From NCBI GenBank assembly GCA_913041665.1, contig CAJWKT010000010.1, forward strand, positions 1 to 37,165: a stretch of 37,165 nt of DNA, in the 5' to 3' direction. This document shows, piece after piece, positions 23,882-36,936 of the stretch (positions are counted from its first letter, which is position 1; each line of letters opens with the position of its first letter). The notes beneath the pieces were generated by a model. The model had not been told where the DNA came from and made no database searches. It saw only the letters and a program-made list of their open reading frames with translations. Source of the DNA: an uncultured Gammaproteobacteria bacterium (GTDB taxonomy: Bacteria; Pseudomonadota; Gammaproteobacteria; Steroidobacterales; Rariloculaceae). A program made the position numbers and the translations under genes.

Positions 23882-24223
23882 GTGAGTGATCGGATAGTAC
23901 ATACTACGGATGACGAGTTTGACGAAGATGTCGTTAATTCGCAGTATCCTGTTTTGGTTGATTTCTGGGCAGAGTGGTGTGGGCCGTGCAAGATGATTGC
24001 ACCAATACTTGATGTGATTGCAGAGGACTACAAAGATCGTCTGCGGGTGGTCAAGCTTAATTTAGACGAAAATCCACAGACTCCGGCAAAATATAATATT
24101 CGCTCCATACCAACTCTATTGTTGTTCAAGAATGGTACCGTAAATGCACAGAAGGTGGGTGCGGTTTCGAAGGCTCAACTAGAGTCTTTTTTGGGTGAAC
24201 ATTTGTCTTCCTCTGAGGATTGA
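23882..24223 (+). CDS. trxA: Thioredoxin
   Basis: General cytoplasmic disulfide reductase. From the GTG at 23882 the protein has 113 residues and begins [17 protein letters not shown], closely like Escherichia coli thioredoxin 1. The active site WCGPC is at 32-36, followed by [11 protein letters not shown]; the cis-Pro is in [16 protein letters not shown] lies 9 bases upstream of the GTG, which supports this start over an in-frame one at 23849. It is followed by rho after 33 bp and divergent from rhlB, the conserved gammaproteobacterial order. Confidence 0.96.
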
Positions 24224-32569: not shown

Positions 32570-33007
32570 TCAGCCTAAATGGTGTTTGGCTGCAAGCAAC
32601 GCCAAGTCATAACTAGCCATCCCGAATCCGGATATTATTCCGATAGCGATATCAGAAAAAAATGAGCGTTGCCGGAAGTCTTCCCGCGAAAATACATTTG
32701 AAAGATGAACCTCTATAAATGGAATCCCTACGGCGAGCAGGGCATCGCGGAGAACGACACTCGTGTGAGTGAAAGCGGCTGGATTGAAAATGATTAGGGC
32801 TATGTCTTCATCGCGGGCTTTATGAATTCTCTTAAGTAATTCATGCTCGGCGTCGCTTTGAAAGAAGAGCAACTCATGCCCGTCTGCCTTAGCCCGCTCT
32901 TCTAGATGACCCTCAGCTTCTTCCAGTGTTGTATGCCCATAAATCTCGGGTTCCCGTTCACCGAGTAAACTAAGATTCGGACCATTGATAATTAATAGAC
33001 GCGCCAT
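32570..33007 (-). CDS. aroQ: 3-dehydroquinate dehydratase, type II
   Basis: Dehydrates 3-dehydroquinate in the shikimate pathway. From the ATG at 33007 the protein has 145 residues with [18 protein letters not shown] (catalytic Tyr23), [18 protein letters not shown] and FIEVHLSN with the catalytic His. Two positions differ from the commonest sequence: Ser for Asn in NLxLLG, and FRQRSFFS where most have a His before Ser. The catalytic pair is kept, so activity is expected. A TTG at 33013 could add two residues. It heads the aroQ-accB-accC group seen in many gammaproteobacteria; an inverted repeat lies in its leader (33032-33067). Confidence 0.96.
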
Positions 33008-33031
33008 ATTCAAGTAAGATTGACGAAGATA

Positions 33032-33079: not shown

Positions 33080-33697
33080 TCACATCTTTTCAGCCAGCAT
33101 GGCTTTAGCAGCCCTTAAATCGGTGGCACCAGACTCTAAGCCGTTAAGCAGATTTAGCACTTTGTCAAGATCCCCTGATTTTAGTTCTCCCGTGTGGACT
33201 CCGAGAACGCTGCCATTGGTGTCAGTAAAAACACTGAATGGTAGGCCGTAGAAATCTACGCCGAACGCGTTTGCTGCATCCATGGCTTCTGATTGTCCGA
33301 TGAGCACCGGATAATTGAAGGCCATGTCTTTAGCGAAGTGTTTTACCGGCTCGAACCGATCTACAGCGATACCCACTACTTGGATTGGCTTATCGCTATT
33401 TGTTTCTTGAAATTCCTTTAGCAAGGGAATCTCCCTGATGCAGGGGGTGCACCAGGTCGCCCAAAAATTAATGATGAGTGCGTGTCCTGGCCAGCTTTTT
33501 ATCGACTGCGATTCCCCCGCTAAGTTGGTCAGGGTAAATTCCGGTAGGTTTGCGACTAATTCCGAGCGGACCGGCGAATTTAGCTGTTGTCCGGCGGTTG
33601 GTGCTGGGCTTAGCATGCGATACCCTAGATAAGTAATCATCGCCGCAACACTGAGTAGCAGGGTGATGGTTACTGGGTGCCCAACGCTGCGCATCAT
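33080..33697 (-). CDS. TlpA/ResA-family membrane-anchored thioredoxin-like protein
   Basis: A 205-residue thiol-disulfide protein held in the inner membrane by one N-terminal helix (about 8-29) and facing the periplasm. The fold is thioredoxin-like with LPEFTLTNLAGE, ALIINFWATWCTPC (Cys83 and Cys86) and FYGLPFSVF carrying the cis-Pro region. Family members reduce cytochrome c apoproteins or other periplasmic thiols. It begins 14 bp after dsbD on the same strand, so DsbD probably supplies its electrons. The substrate is not known, and a dedicated DsbE role is not supported because no cytochrome maturation genes are near. Confidence 0.9.
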   Translation of the reverse strand: MMRSVGHPVTITLLLSVAAMITYLGYRMLSPAPTAGQQLNSPVRSELVANLPEFTLTNLAGESQSIKSWPGHALIINFWATWCTPCIREIPLLKEFQETNSDKPIQVVGIAVDRFEPVKHFAKDMAFNYPVLIGQSEAMDAANAFGVDFYGLPFSVFTDTNGSVLGVHTGELKSGDLDKVLNLLNGLESGATDLRAAKAMLAEKM

Positions 33698-33711: not shown

Positions 33712-35961
33712 CTACAGGGCCGCAGCTTGATGAATGTGATCGGAAAACTCTTCTGGGGAAATAAACCCAACCAGTCTAAATCCTGTCAGTTCTTCGCCTT
33801 CCCTGTTGAAGAAGGCTATCGTAGGAGGACCAAAGATTCCAAAATGTTGTAGCAGCTCCCTATCGGTTTGGTTGTTTTCCGTAACATCAGCACGCAAAGC
33901 AAGGTAGGGTGTTAGAGCTTCCTGGACCGACTGATCGGGGAAAGTATATTTTTCCATTTCCTTGCAGGAGACGCACCAATCAGCAGTAAAATCCAGCATT
34001 ACCGGTGTTTGATCCAGCCGGGCTTGGGCCAGCAAGCCCTCAAGTTCAGATAACGACTCCAGCTCCCGGAACGACACATATTCAGTTTCGGTTATATTTC
34101 CTGTATTGGCTAGAAATGCACCTTGGGGTATAGGACGCAAAGGATCTTTGCCACCAAGGGTTGCTCCCACCAACATTAGTGCAGCATAGAGGCAGGCGAC
34201 GAGTCCCACGCCCTTGCTCATCCTGTTCAGTGGAGAAGCAGGGATCGGCAGTGGTTTGTGTGCACCCAGAAGTAATCCCGTCAAAAGTACCAGCAGTGCC
34301 CAGCATATAAGTATCAGCTCGCTGGGCAGAATTCTCTCCAGCATCCAGATCGAGAGACCTATCATCATTACACCGAAACCTGCCTTGACAGTGCTCATCC
34401 AGGCCCCCGCTTTGGGTAGAAGTTTTCCGCCGGATGCTCCGATGAGTAGGAGAGGGGAGCCCATACCAAGGCTTAGTATGAAGAGAGCTCCGGCGCCCCG
34501 AAGCACTTCGCCGCTTTGCCCTATAACCGCTAGCGTGGCCACGAGCGGTGGGGCAATGCAAGTGGTGACGATTAAGGCAGATAGCGATCCCATCACTACG
34601 GTACCCGTGTAAGTTCCAGTTTTTTGACGGTTGGTTAGATTGCTCAAGCGCGTCTGAATGAAGTTGGGCATTTGTAATTCATAAGCACCCAACATTGAAA
34701 GTGCAAGAAAAAAGAACAGTCCCGCAAAAGTGCCTATGATCCAAGGTTTTTGAAACATTGCCTGGGCCTGTTGGCCAGCCATTGCAGCAAGTGCGCCGGC
34801 TACTGTGTAAGTGATTGCCATGCCCATGACATAGGCAAAAGACAAAGAAAATGCACGATTGGTTTTTTCATTCTCATGCTGGCGCCCGATGATGCTCGAA
34901 AGTATCGGCACCATTGGCAAAACGCAGGGAGTAAATGCCAATAGCAGGCCTGCTAGATAGAAGGTTCCGACCACTTTCCACCAGGAACCACCTAAGATCA
35001 CTGTTGCCAAACGATCCTGCTCAGATATAGGCATTTTTGGGTCTGCCAGAGCAGCACTGAAAGCACCGGAAGCCGGTAGTTGCAGGGAAGTGGTTTTTTT
35101 TACGGCCGGGTAGCAGATACTGCTTTCCTTGCAGCCTTGGTAAGTGGTGCTGATAACGATCGGGATTGCTTCTGGATTTGCTCTGGCAAAGGGGAGAGCA
35201 ATTTCTACATAGTTGAAGAAGATTTCGGTATCCCCGAAATATTCATCGTTATGGAATACGCCCGCAGGGATTCTGGGTGTGCCGAGTTGGATGTTACTGT
35301 CTGTGGTGAATTCGAAGTGGTCCCGGTAAAGATAGTAGCCGGGCTCAATTCTCCAACTCAAAGTGATTTGATTGGGCCCGTCCACTCGGCTGTCTAGTGC
35401 GAAAGCCTTGTCTACCGGAAGGATTTCATCATTGTCTATACGGGGCCCGAAGAAGTTCGCAAACGGTGATGCGTTACTGGGATCCGGAAGAGCAACTCCA
35501 CGAGCCCATCTCTGGGGTGGGTAGCAAAGCCCAATATCCGCACATCCCTGAAGTATCATTGTGACCGAAGCGTTATCCAGTCCAGCCGGGCGCTGATAGG
35601 GGATATCAATCTCAAAACCACCCCTGTAGATCTCCATCTTTCCAAAGAACTCATCCTCGTAGATTTTGCCTTCTGGAAATCTCGGTTCTCCCAGGGAAAT
35701 TTCGGGCGTAGAGCTTTCAAACTCAAATCGTTCGCGGTAGAGATAGTAGCCTTCTGGAATTTGGAAGCGAATTGTTAGTTCGTTGGAGGATGCATTGAGT
35801 TCATACGGGAAAGCTGCCTCGGGGCGAAGGATTTCCCCATCGCTGCGCGAATTCTGCCCAATAGCCGGTTTTTGGCCAAGGCACACGAACATTGCTGCAA
35901 ACAGAAGTGACAGCTTCGCAAAAGAACTCATCGACATACACCCTGAACTGGAACAACTCAT
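33712..35961 (-). CDS. dsbD: Thiol:disulfide interchange protein DsbD with doubled N-terminal domain
   Basis: Moves electrons from cytoplasmic thioredoxin across the inner membrane to periplasmic thiol proteins. From the ATG at 35961 it has 749 residues, well above the roughly 565 of Escherichia coli. After a signal peptide come two related N-terminal domains: the first with GYYLYRERFEFES and CADIGLCYPP (Cys140, Cys146), the second with GYYLYRDHFEFTT and CKESSICYP (Cys277, Cys283). The membrane domain has FTPCVLPMVPI (Cys346) and VTTCIAPPL, and the C-terminal thioredoxin domain has TADWCVSCKEME. All redox cysteines are present. Other starts at 35994 (TTG) or 35937 are possible. It lies 2 bp after cutA and 14 bp before a TlpA-like gene. 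Confidence 0.95.
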   Translation of the reverse strand: MSCSSSGCMSMSSFAKLSLLFAAMFVCLGQKPAIGQNSRSDGEILRPEAAFPYELNASSNELTIRFQIPEGYYLYRERFEFESSTPEISLGEPRFPEGKIYEDEFFGKMEIYRGGFEIDIPYQRPAGLDNASVTMILQGCADIGLCYPPQRWARGVALPDPSNASPFANFFGPRIDNDEILPVDKAFALDSRVDGPNQITLSWRIEPGYYLYRDHFEFTTDSNIQLGTPRIPAGVFHNDEYFGDTEIFFNYVEIALPFARANPEAIPIVISTTYQGCKESSICYPAVKKTTSLQLPASGAFSAALADPKMPISEQDRLATVILGGSWWKVVGTFYLAGLLLAFTPCVLPMVPILSSIIGRQHENEKTNRAFSLSFAYVMGMAITYTVAGALAAMAGQQAQAMFQKPWIIGTFAGLFFFLALSMLGAYELQMPNFIQTRLSNLTNRQKTGTYTGTVVMGSLSALIVTTCIAPPLVATLAVIGQSGEVLRGAGALFILSLGMGSPLLLIGASGGKLLPKAGAWMSTVKAGFGVMMIGLSIWMLERILPSELILICWALLVLLTGLLLGAHKPLPIPASPLNRMSKGVGLVACLYAALMLVGATLGGKDPLRPIPQGAFLANTGNITETEYVSFRELESLSELEGLLAQARLDQTPVMLDFTADWCVSCKEMEKYTFPDQSVQEALTPYLALRADVTENNQTDRELLQHFGIFGPPTIAFFNREGEELTGFRLVGFISPEEFSDHIHQAAAL

Positions 35962-35963
35962 CT

Positions 35964-36290
35964 TTACACGTCCTGAACTTCCCCTATAAGCCAATCGAGA
36001 AAATTTTGTGATCCATCCTGAATACGTACGGCCAAAATCTCTGGGAGTTCATAGCTGTGCTGCCTGCGGATCACTTTTTCCATTGCCTTGAAACGATCTT
36101 CGGTCGTCTTGATGAGCAACAGTATTTCCTGATCTTGCCGTATTTCTCCTTTCCACCGATACGTCGATACTACCCCTTCTAAACGATTCACGCAGGCTGC
36201 AAGCCGTCTTTTCAAGAGGCTAGTCGCAATTGCATCGGCTTCTTCCGCGTCATTGCAAGCAGTCAGCACAAGGATGGCTTTTGAATTCAA
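35964..36290 (-). CDS. cutA: Divalent-cation tolerance protein CutA
   Basis: Small trimeric protein linked to copper tolerance in Escherichia coli; its true biochemical role is unclear. The 108-residue sequence has LLKRRLAACVNRLEGVVSTY, YRWKGEIRQDQEILLLIKT and HSYELPEILAV, which are diagnostic. The start is TTG at 36290, supported by AAGGGGA eight bases upstream and the lack of any nearby ATG. It is the first gene of the eleven-gene minus-strand block, and dsbD follows 2 bp after its stop. CutA next to DsbD is a frequent pairing. Confidence 0.95.
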   Translation of the reverse strand: MNSKAILVLTACNDAEEADAIATSLLKRRLAACVNRLEGVVSTYRWKGEIRQDQEILLLIKTTEDRFKAMEKVIRRQHSYELPEILAVRIQDGSQNFLDWLIGEVQDV

Positions 36291-36540: not shown

Positions 36541-36936
36541 TCAAAAGTTGTATCGGTAGGCTAGACCCCAATCCGAACCGTTCTGACGGGTTACGTAATA
36601 CAGTGCCGCATTACCACTTGGGGCGTAGTCGCCCGTCCGTCGATTGTCTGTGACATTGTGGCCAAAGAGCGACACCTCCCAGTTGCCATCGATCGGCCTC
36701 AAAGCAGCCCGGGCGTTTATTCGCTTCCAGCTATCCTGCCAACCCAGCAATTGATCGCCAGCAGCCTGATTCTCGAAGACGTCCTCGTACGCGACTTGGT
36801 ATCCGTCGGCGAAGACCATCTCTGTATTCAGCGTGAGCTCGTAGTTATCCCCAACAGGCGCGCTGTACGTGGCACCGAAGGCTGCCGGCCAGTCAGAGGC
36901 CTGAATGAGCTCGCGAGGAGCGGCTCTTGGAGAATA
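36541..36936 (-). pseudogene. 3' remnant of a TonB-dependent receptor gene
   Basis: The open frame from 36936 to the TGA at 36541 encodes about 130 residues that look like the last strands of an outer-membrane beta barrel: FGATYSAPVGDNYELTL, WKRINARAALRP, GNWEVSLFGHNVTDNR, and the terminal DWGLAYRYNF, ending in the aromatic residue needed for barrel insertion. Full receptors have 650-900 residues with a plug domain; neither is present, and a TGA at 36937-36939 closes the frame. An ATG at 36819 could start a shorter piece, but without signal peptide. A gene remnant, or a frameshifted gene, is most likely. Confidence 0.6.

Follow-up and report, generated by a model that had tools for sequence, protein, structure and literature searches.

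Two distinct N-terminal domain types in a widespread tandem form of gammaproteobacterial DsbD, possible parallel outlets of one electron pump

Results

The dsbD locus encodes a protein with two intact N-terminal domains

The window, by which we mean the whole 37,165-nucleotide stretch of gammaproteobacterial DNA analysed here, carries on its minus strand a CDS running from 35961 to 33712 whose 749-residue product is a DsbD bearing two intact N-terminal domains in tandem, here called A and B. The gene and its neighbours have the following features.

35964..36290, minus strand: cutA, directly upstream of dsbD with a gap of 2 bp; the same neighbour as in Escherichia coli K-12
33712..35961, minus strand: dsbD CDS with the N-terminal domain duplicated, 749 aa
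35854..35961, minus strand: putative signal-peptide-like N-terminal segment, residues 1-36, with a hydrophobic stretch seen by eye and a predicted helix at residues 12-27
35491..35838, minus strand: domain A, first DsbD_N (nDsbD) domain, residues 42-157; 101.1 bits, Z 17.3 to 6dps
35641..35655, minus strand: cap loop of A, DEFFG, residues 103-107, placed by alignment and from the E. coli cap loop at 68-72 given in the available part of PMC7347389
35524..35544, minus strand: catalytic pair of A, Cys140-X5-Cys146, with cysteine in both columns in 136 of 136 A domains
35431..35490, minus strand: flexible A-B linker, residues 158-177; pLDDT below 50 at 164-176, and again in mid-linker in the model of A and B only
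35080..35430, minus strand: domain B, second DsbD_N (nDsbD) domain, residues 178-294, adjoining the membrane domain; 106 bits, Z 17.1 to 1jzd_C
35233..35247, minus strand: cap loop of B, DEYFG, residues 239-243, placed by alignment
35113..35133, minus strand: catalytic pair of B, Cys277-X5-Cys283, with cysteine in both columns in 136 of 136 B domains
34327..34983, minus strand: DsbD transmembrane electron-transfer domain with Cys346 and Cys468, both invariant in 60 aligned proteins
33715..34080, minus strand: C-terminal thioredoxin-fold domain, W-Cys663-V-S-Cys666-K; Z 22.4 to E. coli cDsbD 2fwe
33080..33697, minus strand: TlpA/ResA-like thioredoxin-fold protein (WCTPC), 14 bp downstream of dsbD; a plausible client, not specific to tandem genes
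32570..33013, minus strand: aroQ, next in the cutA-dsbD-tlpA-aroQ-accB-accC block

Translation may begin at the ATG at 35961 or at an ATG 8 or 10 codons downstream, and the domains are unaffected either way. The protein scores 690 bits against the NCBIfam DsbD model NF001419 (curated cut-off 330), and Pfam finds in it two DsbD_N stretches, a DsbD_TM domain at residues 327-545 and a C-terminal thioredoxin domain; the membrane domain matches PF02683 at 300 bits, and C663 and C666 of the thioredoxin domain are invariant in the 60 aligned proteins. Upstream of cutA lies a truncated 92-aa frame (36541-36819, minus strand) ending in ...LAYRYNF, which by eye resembles the C-terminal end of an outer-membrane receptor.

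An earlier, sequence-only reading of this DNA had proposed two N-terminal redox units, each with GYYLYR, FEF, LGxPRxP, a (D/E)-(Y/F)FG-x-x-EI core and a C-X5-C pair (Cys140/146 and Cys277/283). All of these elements are present, the third as LG(E/T)PR(F/I)P and the core as E(F/Y)FGxxEI, and a Pfam search leaves neither unit without a match to the DsbD N-terminal domain (E 7e-29 and 2e-30). When the genome was searched in six frames, the DsbD_N matches fell at 35503-35835 for A (101.1 bits, E 6.8e-29) and 35083-35430 for B (106 bits, E 2.1e-30), both without a stop and above the family cut-off of 25 bits; two separate Pfam matches in a stop-free open frame rule out a chance repeat or a mis-call. 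Of 123 aligned positions, A and B have the same residue at 42 (34%), and they share 35 of 119 and 38 of 120 aligned positions, respectively, with the N-domain of E. coli. They are the only DsbD_N matches in their own genome (a 2.25-Mb assembly, 86% complete; six-frame search, E up to 0.001). The same genome holds a second, weak DsbD_TM match of 44.3 bits in a 452-aa frame (G000:C7:35574-36149).

Both domains are modelled with the nDsbD fold

Structure prediction bears out the proposal that both units are DsbD N-terminal domains, since each takes the nDsbD fold with Z about 17. The model of domain A aligns with Neisseria nDsbD 6dps (Z 17.3, rmsd 1.6, 115 residues aligned) and that of domain B with E. 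coli nDsbD 1jzd_C (Z 17.1, rmsd 2.3, 117 aligned), and the first solved structure outside the DsbD/ScsB group appears at Z 7.5. The model of the C-domain aligns with E. coli cDsbD 2fwe (Z 22.4, rmsd 1.0, 120 aligned). For the whole protein the mean pLDDT is 84.8 and pTM 0.60; for A and B modelled by themselves the values are 91.6 and 0.57, with weakness just in the linker and the last residues. The models thus suggest two well-defined domains with no fixed mutual arrangement, and the low pTM lends only indirect backing to their free movement.

The catalytic residues are retained in both copies

To compare the copies, 150 tandem reading frames were reduced to 136 by dropping identical domain pairs and aligned with 38 single-domain proteins. 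Both cysteines are present in every A domain (136/136), every B domain (136/136) and every single domain (38/38), as is the cap-loop Asp (136/136, 136/136 and 38/38), and the cap-loop Gly is found in 135 of 136 domains of either type. According to the available part of PMC7347389, the E. coli cap loop comprises residues 68-72, and Phe70 shields the disulfide. The F70 position holds an aromatic residue in 126 of the 136 A domains, in 76 of the 136 B domains and in 16 of the 38 single ones; counting an aromatic at either F70 or Y71, the figures rise to 135 of 136 A, 120 of 136 B and all 38 single domains.

B is therefore the more variable at the capping residue, a pattern that might also reflect lower activity of one copy. 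The lower conservation of the cap aromatic in B would fit a copy that is mainly structural or regulatory, its cysteines unused in turnover; we regard this as highly improbable, given that no cysteine has been lost from either copy in any of the 136 proteins. A degenerate copy, looked for as cysteine loss, was likewise found in none of these tandem proteins. Both domains look active by their residues, and the earlier suggestion that both pairs could exchange disulfides is strengthened by the DsbD_N profile, the nDsbD fold and the invariant catalytic residues.

The tandem form is widespread in the class

Among 58 genomes of the family and order, the window's own included, 57 have DsbD_N matches, 44 have two matches less than 700 bp apart on one contig, and 43 have an unbroken adjacent pair, the pair in G047 being broken by frame and stops. 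A class-wide draw gave a DsbD_N match in 168 of 185 genomes. From this draw, 80 regions around the strongest among the matches listed yielded 78 membrane-domain DsbDs, of which 41 are tandem and 37 have one N-domain; this sample is biased towards tandem genes, each of which has two chances of entering it, so that 41/78 overstates the tandem share. Because 88 of the 168 matched genomes have a single match only, the tandem form can be present in at most 80 of 168. The 80 loci kept from a contig scan (the best 80 of 218) are all tandem, a result biased by a query that is itself tandem. Cultured bacteria with the tandem gene include Povalibacter uvarum (locus L062) and Peristeroidobacter soli (L072).

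A phylum-wide draw of 120 genomes gave a DsbD_N match in 60. Read by eye, adjacent pairs occur in three genomes of the class besides our own (G221, G325 and G069) and in none of the 32 matched genomes outside the class. Outside the class, short DsbD_N reading frames of about 270-320 aa are numerous; they share the Pfam domain of A and B but, unlike the window protein, are too short for a whole DsbD. A plasmid search gave 1965 matching records; to judge by match span, the 15 listed would each have one N-domain.

The family, order and class samples rule out a duplication peculiar to this genome. The tandem DsbD is a widespread architectural variant, and the window protein is not exceptional. The sequence-only reading had considered that the duplication might prove both common and already described in this lineage. 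Common it is; a description was not found in the papers searched, in that no title or abstract start among the literature matches listed describes a duplicated nDsbD, and we do not claim its absence from print.

A and B are distinguishable types

Leave-one-out scoring assigned 132 of 136 A domains and 133 of 136 B domains to the correct type, and the nearest neighbour of a domain is the same copy of another protein in 134 of 136 cases for A and 129 of 136 for B. Over 3000 sampled pairs, mean identity between proteins is 42% for A-A, 40% for B-B and 36% for A-B. Within one protein, A and B average 39%, slightly more than between proteins, so their evolution may not be fully independent. Given this separation of types and these identities, the duplication looks old, perhaps with some shared change within the protein, and one old duplication is likely to lie behind A and B. 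In a tree of the domains (30 of the 136 tandem proteins plus the 38 single ones, 126 columns), A and B are separated in outline only: 59 of 95 inner branches are unsupported, and A requires 7 changes and B 14, so that neither is a clean clade. The spacing from B to the membrane domain has a median of 43 residues, equal to that in single-domain DsbDs, which identifies A as the added outer domain.

The duplicate might simply raise the local concentration of outlets, A and B being interchangeable. Their common fold and catalytic residues are what this explanation would predict, as is their slightly greater likeness within proteins than between them. Frequent switching between tandem and single forms also speaks for it: a core tree of 79 proteins needs 16 such changes, at least 7 of them forced by well-supported branches (this tree omits two class-survey proteins that had no thioredoxin match, and retains L146 and L182, tandem proteins whose extremely long branch probably stems from a bad segment). 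Yet A and B stay distinguishable across the sample, and type-specific residues lie near the active site, with Ser/Leu in A and Tyr/Phe in B before QGC. We therefore think dosage of interchangeable domains unlikely to be the whole purpose of the second copy.

Single-domain DsbDs are B-like in 32 of 38 cases and A-like in 6. Among the A-like singles, L207 is clear (log-odds +49) and the other five score under +9. The core-tree partner of L207 is a tandem protein (SH-aLRT 97), so L207 most likely lost B and kept A. Within the order, another full DsbD, L242, carries just one N-domain, of A-type (+51). L018 (G057) is perhaps one more: its only N-domain scores A-like (+36), but the regions for membrane and thioredoxin domains lie in a second frame that overlaps the first, and this dsbD may be split or frameshifted.

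These proteins bear on the earlier proposal that one domain passes electrons to the other. In such a series, the C-domain would reduce only B, near the membrane, and B would hand electrons to an outward-reaching A. B does keep the position of a single domain, and A is outermost and on a linker. This arrangement is weakened, however, by the existence of full DsbDs with only B-type or only A-type domains, including A-type singles with an intact core (L207 and L242). Transfer between two Ig-fold nDsbDs would moreover be new, the known partners of nDsbD being thioredoxin-fold proteins in the available part of PMC7347389. We consider the relay quite improbable. With DsbDs of both kinds, A-only and B-only, in existence, each domain seems able to do without its partner, which favours parallel outlets over transfer from B to A.

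The TlpA-like gene is a frequent companion of tandem and single-domain dsbD genes

The order cutA, dsbD, TlpA-like gene, aroQ, accB, accC recurs across loci. Class-survey loci with enough flank have cutA upstream of dsbD at 34 of 38 tandem genes and 28 of 36 single ones; aroQ follows within 2500 bp for 24 of 33 tandem and 21 of 33 single genes. Among loci with at least 1000 bp downstream, a TlpA-like gene starts within 400 bp of dsbD at 27 of 37 tandem loci, 17 of 30 loci with a B-like single domain and 3 of 5 with an A-like one; the 400-bp limit leaves out just the tandem L206 (545 bp) and the A-type single L207 (426 bp).

Tandem and B-like single loci do not differ significantly in this linkage (Fisher p = 0.20), and on these counts the TlpA-like gene does not seem to mark the second domain. 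It appears to be a common companion of dsbD whatever the N-domains, and the earlier idea that it encodes a client finds no support here in the form of a client of the extra domain. The TlpA-like protein could nevertheless serve as a client of A or of B. The same genome offers two more candidates, DsbC (a DsbC_N match) and a CcmG/DsbE match over the cut-off. Elsewhere in the window, a 133-aa open frame at 23909-24082 (plus strand) has a partial DsbE-family match of 28.4 bits, below the cut-off.

Some loci encode an nDsbD without its membrane domain

In three genomes of one genus in the window's family, G016, G019 and G020 (loci L239, L238 and L237, respectively), the dsbD locus consists of a short A-type nDsbD only, between cutA and the TlpA-like gene (L237:4608-5201). 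These stand-alone domains score +36 to +40 as A-type, have intact cysteines, and are apparently exported, to judge by eye from a signal-like N-terminus in all three. At each locus, their frame and the TlpA-like one have 17 bases in common; in L237, the two CDSs overlap by 8 bp. In the same genus, G008 has a full tandem gene and G012 is without a DsbD_N match. No DsbD_TM match in G016, G019 or G020 exceeds 78 bits, against 245-300 for six true DsbDs in the same search, and the best in G020 belongs to an ScsB-like protein of 724 aa with its own DsbD_N match.

B-type nDsbD frames without a membrane or thioredoxin domain also occur at the cutA-aroQ locus:

L243:4246-4773, B-type nDsbD frame
L244:4392-4901, B-type nDsbD frame
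L219:6405-7067, B-type nDsbD frame
L202:6535-7875, B-type nDsbD frame

Only L219 among these four has the TlpA-like gene. Among the genomes of these loci, the search for DsbD_TM covered G167, G204 and G141, where no match exceeds 68 bits; L202 lies in G117.

Stand-alone loci without a membrane domain indicate that an nDsbD can persist apart from its pump. We tentatively raise the idea, somewhat unlikely as it stands, that A is a specialised, detachable outlet with its own clients, and that its stand-alone form is a soluble shuttle that feeds the TlpA-like protein and is reduced in trans by an ScsB- or CcdA-like pump. If so, the tandem DsbD would be the fused form of a two-outlet system.

Discussion

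In E. coli, electrons flow from thioredoxin through the membrane domain, the C-domain and the N-domain to DsbC, CcmG and DsbG, and solved complexes have the N-domain meeting cDsbD, DsbC and CcmG with the cap loop open (PMC7347389, available part). For the window protein, we think it moderately probable that we are dealing with an E. coli DsbD orthologue that has gained a place for a distinct second nDsbD in front, and that the two N-domains are parallel outlets, each preferring different clients. Following the order in E. coli, cytoplasmic thioredoxin would reduce the membrane cysteines C346/C468, which would reduce C663/C666 of the C-terminal thioredoxin domain, and these would pass electrons to either A (C140/C146) or B (C277/C283). 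On their flexible tethers, A and B would work side by side, docking thioredoxin-fold clients, the candidates being DsbC, CcmG and the TlpA-like neighbour. That A and B stay divergent in sequence would then reflect different client preference rather than extra capacity alone; given that divergence, a split of clients seems more likely than mere dosage.

The mechanistic knowledge of DsbD that we read rests on proteins with a single N-domain, those of E. coli and Neisseria. If many Gammaproteobacteria use two different output domains per pump, the picture of nDsbD as the one hub needs a second hub. The natural A-only, B-only, tandem and stand-alone forms offer a ready set for matching domain to client, and the distinction between A and B, together with the stand-alone forms, brings what the second domain does within reach of experiment.

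Comparison with known systems

The window protein has the features that mark a DsbD: an N-terminal Ig-fold with C-X5-C and cap loop (here twice), a redox membrane domain, a C-terminal CxxC and the cutA-dsbD arrangement. By analogy, we infer that it moves electrons from cytoplasmic thioredoxin to periplasmic clients. With E. coli DsbD (b4136; nDsbD 1jpe, 1l6p and 3pfu, cDsbD 2fwe, complex 1vrs) it shares the membrane and C-terminal domains, the cysteine pairs and the cap loop. In E. coli K-12, cutA overlaps dsbD, whereas in the window it lies 2 bp upstream. The E. coli protein, of 565 aa, has one N-domain, which scores B-like (log-odds -23.7), and the window protein has two.

The full-length DsbD of Neisseria meningitidis likewise has one N-domain, and its PDB entries (6dps, 6dnv, 6dnu) are only single-domain constructs, whose N- and C-terminal folds are shared with the window protein. 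In the structural comparison, Neisseria nDsbD ranks first for domain A, with E. coli 1vrs_C within one Z unit.

ScsB combines a long N-terminal region, which includes a DsbD_N-like domain, with membrane and thioredoxin domains, as in the Proteus mirabilis protein (N-terminal region 6c29) and the 724-aa ScsB-like protein of L246. That region comprises two Ig-like subdomains and has one Cys pair. The window protein is not an ScsB, because both of its DsbD_N domains carry a Cys pair, where in L246 one pair and no second DsbD_N were found; against domain B, 6c29 reaches only Z 11.6. Nor is it a CcdA, which is the membrane domain alone (PMC4460558, available part), since three additional periplasmic domains accompany the membrane domain here.
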